A stretch of DNA of 64,000 nt from Actinomycetes bacterium (lineage in GTDB: Bacteria > Actinomycetota > Acidimicrobiia > Acidimicrobiales > Palsa-688). Of this stretch, positions 491 through 6,202 are shown piece after piece (positions within the stretch are counted from its first letter, which is position 1; each line of letters starts with the position of its first letter). The stretch covers positions 50,549 to 114,548 of the forward strand of contig JAJZIY010000006.1 of NCBI GenBank assembly GCA_021828475.1, given 5' to 3'. Made by a program: the position numbers and the translations under genes. The notes beneath the pieces are model-generated. The model was not told the DNA's origin and searched no databases. It worked only from the letters and a program-made list of their open reading frames with translations.

Positions 491-2146
491 TCAACCCACC
501 TGGCCGCGCCGGCGCATGTCGGCTCGGCGCTCGGCATCCAGGCGCCCGAGGCTGCGGTCGTCGTAGCCCTCGTGGTCGACGAACCCCATCATGTCGGCGA
601 TGGCCCGGTGGCCCGCCCGCTCGGCGATCAAGCGGTGCATCTGCTGGCATACCTGGCGGTACTCGGGGTGCCCCTGTGAGGTCGTGCGCAGCTCGAGCAT
701 GTGCATGGCTTCGCGTGCGTTCATGTGGATGCTGTAGCGCACGCGGTGAGCGAGGGTGACGGCGTAGCCGCCGACACTGGGCCCGAAACGCTCCTGCAGC
801 GCCTCGAACAGGGATGCCGAGCGCTCCATGGCCTCGGCGTAGACCGCCCCCTGGCCTGCGTCCTCGACAGCGGTAGGCATGGTGTAGCCGTGGTGGGGCG
901 TGAGCCCCTGCCATTCGACTGTGAGCAGCCGGTGCCGCTGCAGGTCGCGGAAAGCGCCGTAGTCCGACACGACGTCGAAGCGGTACGAGGCGAGCTCCAG
1001 GGCCCGGCCAGGCCGGTGCCGGCGGTTGACGCGCTCTCCCGCGTACCTCTCCATCACCTCGCTGCGCTGGTCCATGGACATCCCGGCGACCCGGTGCGCA
1101 AGCTCGGACTCCGACAGGTGGGTGTAGGGGTACAGCATCCCAGCGATCACCTTGTCCTCTGCCCGGGGGTCCCAGTCCACCAGGTCCACCCGGGGCGCCG
1201 CCGCCGGAGCGCCGCTCGTCTCCACCGCGCCGGCGAAGAGCGCCGAGGCCAGATCCTTCATGGCCGAACTGTTTTTCTCCATGTAGGACGACCAGGCGCT
1301 GCCCCGGTCGGCGACCTCGACGCGCCTCACCCAGGACGGGATCACCTTGCGCAGCTCGGTGAGCATCATGTCGGCGTAAGCCCTCGCCTCAGGCAGAGGG
1401 TGAGCCCGCATACGCAGCAGGAGGCCCTCATAGGCCTGGCCTGACCCGTACATGCCCAGGTTGGAGGTGGCTGCCGCCGGGAGGAGGCCCCGCAGTGTGT
1501 CGAAAGCCTTGGCCTTCAAGGCCTGCCGGTAGGCAAAGTCGCTGTCGTCGGGCAGGCGGGCCACGTTGCGGGCGAACCAGTCGTACAGGACTGGCAGCGA
1601 CGCGGCGTAAGCGTCGAACATTCGGTCCATGTCCCCCACGTACCGCGCGCCCAGCGGTGACGCCAGTACCTCGGGACTGCGGTAGTAGCGGTACCGGCCG
1701 CTCGGCAGGCGGGTGTCGTATGCCACGTAGCGGGTGGACTTCTCCATGTAGGACATCAGGCGGCCGCGCTCGAGCACCTTGGTGAGCAGGTTGGACGCCT
1801 GCTCGCAGGCAAGGTGCACCCCACCGAGCTGGGCGACGGAGTCGTCGCCGTACTCGAAGAAGACTTTCTCGTAGAGCTGCTCGGCCCTGGCCAGGCCGAC
1901 CGTGGCGTCGACGCTGTGGTCGCCGCTGACGTCCAGGTCGCCGACGAACTCGTCGAGGAAGAGCCTCCTCAGGCTCTTGGCCGAACGCGAGTACCGCGCG
2001 AACAGAGCGCCTTTGACGACCTCGGGGAGATTGACCAGGGCGAAGACGGGGCCGTCCAGGTTCGTGAAGTACCGCTTCAGCACCTCGGCCTCGTCCCGGC
2101 TCCAGGCCTCCGGGACGTAAGGCATGTCCGTGGAGTACGTGGTCAT
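491..2146 (-). CDS. Double-domain ThyX-family (FAD-dependent thymidylate synthase-like) protein
   Basis: At 551 residues this is about twice the length of a normal ThyX, and it appears to be two ThyX-like halves. ThyX methylates dUMP using FAD and methylene-THF and carries the signature RHRX7S. The N-terminal half has RGRLMSYMEKSTRYV, which is that signature with His replaced by Gly. The C-terminal half has RHRLLTVEWQG, where the Ser is replaced by Gly. A typical ThyX C-terminal segment follows (NAREAMHMLELR...). Neither half has an intact motif, so thymidylate synthase activity is doubtful. Membership of the ThyX superfamily is well supported, but the reaction is not. The start is ATG, with no strong Shine-Dalgarno sequence. 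Confidence 0.8.
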   Translation of the reverse strand: MTTYSTDMPYVPEAWSRDEAEVLKRYFTNLDGPVFALVNLPEVVKGALFARYSRSAKSLRRLFLDEFVGDLDVSGDHSVDATVGLARAEQLYEKVFFEYGDDSVAQLGGVHLACEQASNLLTKVLERGRLMSYMEKSTRYVAYDTRLPSGRYRYYRSPEVLASPLGARYVGDMDRMFDAYAASLPVLYDWFARNVARLPDDSDFAYRQALKAKAFDTLRGLLPAAATSNLGMYGSGQAYEGLLLRMRAHPLPEARAYADMMLTELRKVIPSWVRRVEVADRGSAWSSYMEKNSSAMKDLASALFAGAVETSGAPAAAPRVDLVDWDPRAEDKVIAGMLYPYTHLSESELAHRVAGMSMDQRSEVMERYAGERVNRRHRPGRALELASYRFDVVSDYGAFRDLQRHRLLTVEWQGLTPHHGYTMPTAVEDAGQGAVYAEAMERSASLFEALQERFGPSVGGYAVTLAHRVRYSIHMNAREAMHMLELRTTSQGHPEYRQVCQQMHRLIAERAGHRAIADMMGFVDHEGYDDRSLGRLDAERRADMRRRGQVG

Positions 2147-3306: not shown

Positions 3307-6045
3307 CTAGCTCAAACGGTCGACAGGCGTCGCGGTCCCCCCGGCCACGGGGCCTGGCAGAGCCGATGCGGCAACCACGCCGCGGAACAGCGCCCCGGCC
3401 CCATCGCGCGCCGCCTGGGCCGACGCCTGCAGCGGCAAAACCTCCCCCAGCTGCCTCAGCAGGTCGACCAGTTGCTTCACGTTGCGCACGAAATCACCCG
3501 CCGAGAACCCCGAGGGGCCATCCTGGCCGTCCTGCGCTCCGGCGAGCAGCCTCCCGATGGCCTGGCCCCTTGCCCACCCGTAGGCGACGGCAGCGAACCC
3601 GGCGTCCACCGCCCGGGTCGCCGGCAGGCCGGCGGCCTGCTCCGCAGCGGCGAGCTCCACCGCCACTGCCTGGACCTGCTCCCATCTCTCGCGCAGCCGC
3701 CGTGCCGGCCAGCGCGGCGGCGCCTCGGCTATGCCAGCGGGGCCACGCGGCTCGTAGGTGAACACCGAGACGAGCGCCGCCATCTCCGCCGGGCGCAGCC
3801 CGTCCAGGAGGCCACGCTCGGCACATTCGGCTACCAGCAGGTCCTGGGGGTGATAGATCCTGGCGAGGCGCTGCCCGGCCGCAGTCAGCGACCAACCCTC
3901 CACGTAGCGCCAGCTCCGAAGCAGGGCGAGGACGCGGTCGAGCTGCCGGGCCAGCGACTCAGCGCGGCCCTTGACCTGCTTGTCCAGGCGCTCGACCTGC
4001 CGGCGCGCCCGCTCGGCCCTGGCAGCGGCGCGCAGGTGCGCCTTCAGGTGCGGGCAGGCACTGACGGCGAGTTGTGCTGCCTCGTCCAGCGCGGCGTCAG
4101 CGGCGCTGGGGCGCCCGCTTCCGTGGAGGCCGGCACGCTCCTCGCCTGCCTGCAGGCGTTCCGCAACCCGGCGTTGGAACTCCCTGCTCTTGGGGGTGAA
4201 GGGCACCGGCAGCTCGACCCGGCCGACGGCGCGGGGCGGGTAGCGGAAGTCACGGGCAGCCAGGGTCACGAGCCGCCGGCCGGCTGTGATGCCCCGGAGG
4301 CTCACCTCGCCTCGCCGGCGCTGTGAAGTGGCCAGGACCGCCACCCGCTCGCCAGTGCGGGCCCCCCCCTTCGGGTGCCCGGGCAGGACGACGACGTCGC
4401 CGGGACGCAGCTCGGCCAGAGCCTCGAGCACCTCGGCCAGTTTGGGACGTGGGGCGCGCGCCTCCCCTGGTCCTCTCGCAGCCGTCACGAGCCGCCGGTA
4501 CTCGAAGACGTCGCCGAGCTCGCAGGAGGCATCCGCCGTAGCCGCGGCCAGCTCGTCCCGGGCCCTTCCGAGCTGGCGCTCCAGGCGGACCGTGTCGGCG
4601 TCGGAACGGTACTGCGCGAACGAGAGGTTGAGCAGGTGGTGGGCCTGTTGCGTAGAGCAGCGCCCGACAAGGTTGGTGGCCATGTTGTAGGTCGGGCGGA
4701 AGCTCGAGGTGAGGGTGTAGCTGCGGGCGCCGGCCAGCGACGCCAGCTGCTCGAAGCTCACGTTCGGCGCCCACAGGGCCACCGCATAGCCGACCTCGTC
4801 CGTGCCGCGCCTGCCCGCCCTCCCGGTGAGCTGCGTGTACTCCCCGGGCGTGAGCGGCTCGACGCGCTCCCCGCCGAACTTGGACAACTTCTCTATCACC
4901 ACGGACCTGGCCGGCATGTTGATCCCGAGCGCGAGCGTCTCGGTGGCGAACACCACTTTCACGAGACCGGCGGCGAAGCAACGCTCCACCGCCTCCTTGA
5001 AGGGCGGCACCATACCGGCGTGGTGGGCGGCGAAGCCGGCCTCCAGCCCGGCGAGCCAGCCGGCGTAGCCCAGGGCCTCCAGATCCGCTTCGCTCAGGTG
5101 ACGGGCCGCCTCCTCCGCGACGAGGCGCACCTCGGCCCGTTCGGCCGTGCTCGTGAGCCGCCGCGTCTCGCGCAGGCATTGGCGGACCGCCTCGTCGCAC
5201 CCGGCCCGGCTGAAGATGAAATAGATAGCCGGCAGCAGGCCGCGCTCGTCGAGCACCTCGACGGACTCGGCGCGTCTGGGTACGAACAGGCCGGCCCGCC
5301 GCTGCGCCCTCCAGCCGCTTTCGACCCGGGCCGTAACAGCTGTGCCCTGGGGGTTGGGACGGCCTTCGAGGAGGGTGGGCATGACCAGGATGTCGCCTCG
5401 CCTGCGGTCCCCGACCATGAAGAGGCTGTGGAGAGGGACGGGTCGCCGCTCCTCTATGACGGCCCTGGTCGAGCCACGCACGGTGCCCACCCAGTCCGCC
5501 AGCTCCTCGGCGTTCGAGACGGTGGCCGACAGACAGACCAGGTCCACCTCCGAGGGAAGGTGGATGATGACCTCCTCCCAAACCGGCCCCCGGTAGGCGT
5601 CCTGCAGGTAGTGGACCTCGTCCAACACGACATAGCGCAGGCCTTCGAGGCTGCGCGACCCGGCGTAGATCATGTTGCGCAAGACCTCGGTGGTCATGAC
5701 CACGAGGGGCGCATCACCGTTGACGGCGTTGTCCCCCGTCAGCAGCCCGACCCGGGCGGCCCCGTAGGTGCGGCTGAAGTCACCGAACTTCTGGTTGGAC
5801 AACGCCTTGAGGGGCGTGGTGTAGAAGGCCTTTCGGCCCTGCGACAGGGCCCGGGCCACGGCGTACTCGGCCACCAGGGTCTTGCCTGACCCGGTCGGGG
5901 CGGCGACGACGACACTGTGCCCCTCGTCGAGAGCGGCCATCGCCTCCAGCTGGAAGGGATCCGGGTCGAAGTCGAGGCCGTCCACGAAAACCGAGCGGAG
6001 CTGCCCGGCCATGACCCGGGCCGGCTCGGGCCCTTGTGCGCTCAC
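3307..6045 (-). CDS. helY: Ski2/Mtr4-like DEVH-box RNA helicase HelY
   Basis: This is a large superfamily-2 helicase of about 912 residues. Visible motifs are Walker A (APTGSGKT), the DEVH box (DEVHYLQD), motif III (SATVSN), a Ski2-type HHAGM segment and motif VI (QLTGRAGRRG). A long C-terminal DSHCT-like region follows. It probably remodels structured RNA in the cytoplasm. Its position after tatC repeats the mycobacterial order tatA-tatC-helY. The track ORF opens at 6189, but I prefer GTG at 6045: it has AAAGG just upstream and gives VSAQGPEPARV. An ATG at 6012 is another option. Confidence 0.9.
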   Translation of the reverse strand: MSAQGPEPARVMAGQLRSVFVDGLDFDPDPFQLEAMAALDEGHSVVVAAPTGSGKTLVAEYAVARALSQGRKAFYTTPLKALSNQKFGDFSRTYGAARVGLLTGDNAVNGDAPLVVMTTEVLRNMIYAGSRSLEGLRYVVLDEVHYLQDAYRGPVWEEVIIHLPSEVDLVCLSATVSNAEELADWVGTVRGSTRAVIEERRPVPLHSLFMVGDRRRGDILVMPTLLEGRPNPQGTAVTARVESGWRAQRRAGLFVPRRAESVEVLDERGLLPAIYFIFSRAGCDEAVRQCLRETRRLTSTAERAEVRLVAEEAARHLSEADLEALGYAGWLAGLEAGFAAHHAGMVPPFKEAVERCFAAGLVKVVFATETLALGINMPARSVVIEKLSKFGGERVEPLTPGEYTQLTGRAGRRGTDEVGYAVALWAPNVSFEQLASLAGARSYTLTSSFRPTYNMATNLVGRCSTQQAHHLLNLSFAQYRSDADTVRLERQLGRARDELAAATADASCELGDVFEYRRLVTAARGPGEARAPRPKLAEVLEALAELRPGDVVVLPGHPKGGARTGERVAVLATSQRRRGEVSLRGITAGRRLVTLAARDFRYPPRAVGRVELPVPFTPKSREFQRRVAERLQAGEERAGLHGSGRPSAADAALDEAAQLAVSACPHLKAHLRAAARAERARRQVERLDKQVKGRAESLARQLDRVLALLRSWRYVEGWSLTAAGQRLARIYHPQDLLVAECAERGLLDGLRPAEMAALVSVFTYEPRGPAGIAEAPPRWPARRLRERWEQVQAVAVELAAAEQAAGLPATRAVDAGFAAVAYGWARGQAIGRLLAGAQDGQDGPSGFSAGDFVRNVKQLVDLLRQLGEVLPLQASAQAARDGAGALFRGVVAASALPGPVAGGTATPVDRLS

Positions 6046-6202
6046 CCGACCTTTGTAGCGCACCTCGCCACCGCCATCCCGCACTACCCGGCCCGGCCTG
6101 CTGGCCTCCCTGTCCGCCTGAGGGCCCCCGTCCGGCCAGCACCCTGCAACTGGCGGCTCCCGGCGCGCCAAGCATGTCCCATCGGGCACACCGGGGCCCG
6201 GC

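Follow-up and report, generated by a model that had tools for sequence, protein, structure and literature searches.

The window analysed here, a stretch of 64,000 nt from an actinobacterial genome of the order Acidimicrobiales, carries a gene that very probably encodes a working flavin-dependent thymidylate synthase (ThyX) whose active site is shared between two fused halves. The gene is a minus-strand open reading frame (2146..491) of 551 codons that begins with ATG and encodes a protein of 551 aa. Its features are as follows:

491..2146, minus strand, stop codon included: the two-domain ThyX-like gene, an open frame from ATG with two Thy1 stretches
1196..2146, minus strand: N-terminal ThyX-like domain, residues 1-317 (canonical ThyX profile match, probability 97.6%)
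494..1195, minus strand: C-terminal ThyX-like domain, residues 318-551 (canonical ThyX profile match, probability 98.1%)
1727..1768, minus strand: N-half motif RGRLMSYMEKSTRY, residues 127-140; the His of RHR is lost, the Ser88/Arg90/Tyr91 equivalents are retained
1829..1849, minus strand: N-half GDDSVAQ, residues 100-106, equivalent of canonical GHxSxxEH (T. maritima His53, Thr55, Glu58)
1478..1492, minus strand: N-half RGLLP, residues 219-223, equivalent of T. maritima Arg147 (dUMP phosphate) to Pro151
905..937, minus strand: C-half motif RHRLLTVEWQG, residues 404-414; RHR is retained, the Ser88/Arg90/Tyr91 equivalents are lost
686..721, minus strand: C-half NAREAMHMLELR, residues 476-487, with the equivalents of T. 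maritima Asn163, Arg165 and Arg174

The sole Pfam domain in the protein is Thy1 (PF02511), matched in two stretches (E = 6e-37; 127.7 bits vs a gathering cut-off of 24.8) and found in 55/55 relatives scanned; the ThyA domain PF00303 is not present. The NCBIfam ThyX equivalog TIGR02170 scored 49.3 bits, below its threshold of 87.9. An AlphaFold2 model of the single chain (pLDDT 91.5, pTM 0.90) was compared with the PDB using Foldseek, where the 50 best matches listed were all ThyX, with T. maritima ThyX accounting for every top match (TM-score 0.58-0.72, by target; E = 2e-6 to 8e-6). Secondary-structure elements recur in register in the two halves of the model, with a helix before RGR (119-125) matched by one before RHR (396-403), and a strand-helix unit at 226-247 repeated as 467-487. 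While phmmer, run with the single protein against the PDB, returned nothing relevant, the profile and fold searches did find ThyX. Similarity was not detectable in a direct profile comparison of the N-half with the C-half, and the duplication is therefore deduced from the match of each half to canonical ThyX.

A sequence-only reading of this DNA had described an RGRX7S motif in the N-half and an RHRX7G motif in the C-half, and both are found, as R127-G128-R129-X7-S137 (RGRLMSYMEKS, residues 127-137) and R404-H405-R406-X7-G414 (residues 404-414). We aligned 64 actinobacterial proteins and 10 others (from Bacillus/Paenibacillus plasmids, two phages and more; 74 two-domain sequences in all) with 22 canonical ThyX, and compared key positions in T. 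maritima numbering. An intact RHRX7S within one domain occurs in 0/74 sequences, in neither half. The C-half retains R78, H79, R80 and R174 in 74/74, while position 79 of the N-half is Gly, Asn, Pro or another residue (His in 0/74) and its position 174 is never Arg (0/74). The N-half retains S88, R90, Y91 and R147 in 74/74, all of which the C-halves have lost, as well as the E86 equivalent (74/74). For each of R78, H79, R80, S88, R90, Y91, R147 and R174, at least one half has the residue at the homologous position. In the window protein's own numbering, Arg219 (with no Arg147 equivalent in the C-half), Leu222 and Pro223 of the N-half are invariant, C-half Arg487 occurs in 74/74, and Asn476 and Arg478 are near-invariant in the actinobacterial family, in which GDDSVAQ is also strongly conserved (GHSSVAE in the Bacillus/Paenibacillus forms). 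Pseudogene decay was ruled out by the open frames and by the invariant residues recurring across the 64 relatives, in which position 128 is never His, position 137 always Ser, position 405 always His and position 414 variable (Pro, Arg, Asp, Ala and others). By these sequence criteria, the two-domain gene represents a conserved family and not a decaying one.

In one site of the M. tuberculosis and H. pylori ThyX enzymes, RHR and Arg174 come from subunit A, T55 and R165 from subunit B, and subunit C supplies Ser88, Arg90 and the lid residue Tyr91 (PMC6514825; M. tuberculosis positions were put into T. maritima numbering with an alignment). PBCV-1 ThyX is consistent with this, with Gln75 and Arg182 supplied by monomer A and Ser88 by monomer B (PMC3498832), and a kinetic study of T. 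maritima ThyX points to S88, R90 and Y91 as important (PMC8316439). As judged from the alignment, the residues kept in each half sort by published subunit role, with the C-half corresponding to the FAD side (subunit A) and the N-half to the dUMP side (subunit C). This match to contributions made by different subunits in solved ThyX tetramers strongly supports the proposal of the sequence-only reading that the two half-motifs complete one another across an interface. The subunit B residues sort less cleanly: the Thr55 position is Ser in the N-half of all forms, suggesting that the N-half also plays subunit B, but Arg165 lies in different halves in different forms (see below). An arrangement in which the A and B roles both fall to the C-halves was dropped, as distant homologues have T55 and R165 in the N-half.

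We propose that a ThyX gene was duplicated and fused long ago, and that the two halves of the product then lost complementary parts of the active site. Two chains would pair as a homodimer with pseudo-222 symmetry, that is, a pseudo-heterotetramer shaped like the ThyX homotetramer; this assembly, with its putative pairing axis, is predicted from the pattern of kept residues and the subunit roles in published structures. Two live sites would each combine a C-half with N-halves, so that both chains would be required, and the remaining two sites of the pair would be dead. FAD would be reduced by NAD(P)H, and dUMP would be converted to dTMP with a one-carbon unit from methylene-tetrahydrofolate. 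The two-domain protein would be the housekeeping, and sole, thymidylate synthase of the bacteria that carry it.

The genomic distribution of the gene was examined by family searches on the whole genomes of 297 members of the phylum. A homologue, nearly always full length, is encoded by 88 of these, including 22/22 genomes sampled from the same order (source genome counted) and 4/5 other class members. The sequence-only reading had called for a check of whether a thyA or a normal thyX accompanies the gene; no other PF02511 or PF00303 match is present in 84/88 carriers, and in the source genome the answer is qualified by a divergent ThyA-like gene. A match to one of these two domains occurs in 190/209 non-carriers (Fisher p about 1e-49 for mutual exclusivity, not corrected for kinship). 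The four carriers with a PF00303 match are the source genome (G000), with its divergent gene, G231 (a 51-bit match), G130 (a thyA piece) and G200 (a split thyA). ThyX users lack dihydrofolate reductase (DHFR). Here, DHFR scored above cut-off in 31/31 genomes with a ThyA match of >200 bits and in 2/88 carriers, G200 and G130, each of which also has a thyA piece; in G178, a genome of the same class without the two-domain gene, thyA and folA are adjacent. In excluding ThyA and DHFR almost throughout, the two-domain gene is distributed among genomes as a ThyX-type synthase would be.

Further genes of thymidylate metabolism were sought in the source genome and in two closed genomes (G016 and G081; one contig each, ~99% complete). 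Thymidylate kinase and dUTPase were found in all three, and neither thymidine kinase nor dNK was found in any of them. G016 and G081 would have no visible route to dTMP without the two-domain protein. In the source genome, the only other dTMP candidate is the divergent ThyA-like gene (contig C87; 1330-2274 of locus L004), whose 314 aa product scores under all NCBIfam cut-offs for thymidylate synthase and reads GLPHD where ThyA has GVPFN, with Asp replacing the uracil-recognising Asn. We rejected it as the genome's real synthase given these scores, the GLPHD motif and the lack of a PF00303 match in nearly all carriers. The same Asn-to-Asp change is seen in dCMP-type enzymes, and an ORF with a helicase match adjoins the gene; the locus is possibly a mobile or base-modification one. 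In G200, the thyA that stands alongside the two-domain ThyX (contig C39, locus L195) is split by ~1 kb (profile positions 1-176 and 172-266) and followed by folA; Rfam found no intron in this split gene.

The sequence-only reading had alternatively suggested a new flavin- or nucleotide-dependent role, by which the protein would be a ThyX paralogue acting, for example, on a modified base or as a sensor, with thymidylate coming from another enzyme. Such a role would accord with a canonical signature broken in both halves, an equivalog score under cut-off, the ThyA-like gene of the source genome and the replacement of His53 by Asp. However, 84/88 carriers have no other thymidylate synthase candidate, the ThyA-like gene is a divergent one with the Asn-to-Asp change, nearly all relatives having nothing comparable, and the residues with subunit A and C roles are all retained in one half or the other. 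With the two-domain protein as the sole recognisable thymidylate synthase in nearly every carrier, DHFR missing from carriers and G178 using thyA-folA instead, the evidence disfavours a new role, which we regard as quite improbable. We scarcely credit the idea of a single functional ThyX half joined to a structural or regulatory relic: each half does have a recognisable Thy1 domain, but RHR/Arg174 and Ser88/Arg90/Tyr91/Arg147 never occur together in one half, and both residue sets are invariant in 74 sequences from several phyla.

A further alternative is that the enzymes of the actinobacterial branch are active thymidylate synthases with rearranged chemistry, such as another one-carbon donor or flavin gate. 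ThyX His53 stacks on folate or flavin (PMC11940539); the N-halves of the Bacillus/Paenibacillus and phage forms retain it, and those of the actinobacterial forms have Asp instead. The FAD-phosphate residue Arg165 belongs to the N-half in the Bacillus/Paenibacillus and Tunturi forms; in the actinobacterial form it belongs to the C-half, and the N-half has an invariant Gln at this position. Asp101, Ser103, Gln106 and Gln237 are invariant in 64/64 actinobacterial proteins, and His377 of the C-half is His in 53/64; this residue may or may not replace the missing N-half His53. These changes could point to altered chemistry, but residue moves between the halves could just rebuild the same site, and we assign rearranged chemistry a very low probability. 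A composite picture, in which the protein is a natural pseudo-heterotetrameric ThyX with half its sites silenced and, in actinobacteria, a flavin/folate gate rewired by the change of His53 to Asp and the move of Arg165, seems to us unlikely; such an enzyme would have an altered donor or gating, and its dead position might bind a ligand.

A scan of the entire collection yielded at least 572 relatives, and the best 80 of these are almost all from Acidimicrobiia or unplaced Actinomycetota. Two records among the best 80 (L125 and L149), with close relatives at 65-67%, are titled Bifidobacterium breve and look mislabelled. Distant relatives occur on plasmids of Bacillus, Paenibacillus, Euzebya and Miltoncostaea, in a 278 kb Parabacteroides record, in the acidobacterial phage Tunturi_5 and in Microcystis phages. 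These are named 'FAD-dependent thymidylate synthase' on plasmid records and mostly 'thymidylate synthase' on phage records, so that the name itself is already in databases and is not new; for a fused, tandem or two-domain ThyX architecture, or for ThyX in Acidimicrobiia, we found no description in the open-access papers searched. In a tree with canonical ThyX, the N-halves form one group (100/100) and the C-halves another with weak support (79/36). Both groups branch in the same order (Bacillus/Paenibacillus, phages, actinobacteria), which fits a single fusion before these lineages parted.

The locus context is partly conserved in the class. A large DEAD/DEAH-type helicase gene (window 3307..6189, minus strand) lies two genes upstream of the ThyX gene, and a homologue of it is found near the ThyX gene in 47/80 related loci, in an upstream position; an acetyltransferase-like gene is located downstream in 56/80. 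The homologue in phage Tunturi_5 is near the dUMP-supply genes for dCMP deaminase and dUTPase, and that of Euzebya near one for dCTP deaminase. Bacillus and Paenibacillus plasmids of ~200-230 kb (L201, L203, L207-L209) carry the two-domain ThyX close to a helicase gene, in some cases together with AAA ATPase, DUF1257 and DUF2997 genes, and may be phage-plasmids. Parabacteroides distasonis 'plasmid 45' (NZ_OY725790.1, L206) encodes a 539 aa two-domain ThyX (46% identity to the window protein) that branches within the actinobacterial forms though the record is of Bacteroidota, probably through horizontal transfer. Copy number varies as well: G040 has two full two-domain copies (contigs C71 and C5; 57% and 52% identity to the window protein), and G293 (C6 and C49) has one two-domain copy plus a 153 aa frame holding a C-half fragment.

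Canonical ThyX (T. maritima TM0449, M. tuberculosis Rv2754c and that of PBCV-1) shares with the two-domain protein the Thy1 domain, the ThyX fold and the catalytic set from R78 to R174 listed above, and for both the presence of the gene tracks the absence of ThyA and DHFR. In contrast to the canonical enzyme, a single-domain homotetramer of ~220-270 aa chains with four like sites, the 551 aa chain divides its site between two halves and is predicted to leave two sites dead. As it is ThyX-like but departs from canonical ThyX both in equivalog score and in the intact RHRX7S, we class it as a two-domain variant within the Thy1 superfamily. Already labelled two-domain relatives are WP_162645902.1, WP_080623771.1, WP_009276148.1, phage Tunturi_5 gp50 and Microcystis phage MaMV-DC ORF20L, for which a search for a structure or assay found none. 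The plasmid and Tunturi_5 proteins are colinear with the window protein over most of its length, whereas in the homology search the MaMV proteins gave matches to just the C-half; in the labelled plasmid and phage relatives, RHR and S88/R90/Y91 are split as in the window protein. The Bacillus/Paenibacillus and Tunturi_5 forms, at 23-25% identity, differ from the actinobacterial form in having His53 and Arg165 in the N-half. ThyA (PF00303) with DHFR has the same proposed product and replaces the two-domain gene in G178, but its fold is unrelated and it requires DHFR, which carriers lack.

The whole of one bacterial class and parts of other classes appear to depend on an enzyme in which neither half holds a complete active site. 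A curated ThyX model scores this enzyme under its cut-off, and the two-domain reading would account for thymidylate synthase seeming to be missing from these genomes. In this family an essential enzyme would offer a clear example of duplication and fusion with complementary loss. With the FAD side and the dUMP side of ThyX separated on one gene, mutations confined to a single role would become possible, which they are not in a homotetramer.

Another departure from the usual ThyX layout was seen in five genomes (G009, G052, G076, G039 and G163; loci L107-L111) that encode single Thy1 proteins of ~270-300 aa. In these, the signature region (THRxFSRNSASSRAIP) comes first and the ARVSY...HWSPxEH region is at the C-terminus, so that they are apparently circularly permuted ThyX, to judge by motif order. 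They are the only ThyX-like genes of their genomes, four of which have no ThyA match and the fifth (G163) a weak one. By tblastn, 1,024 phage records match, the best with ~46% identity.
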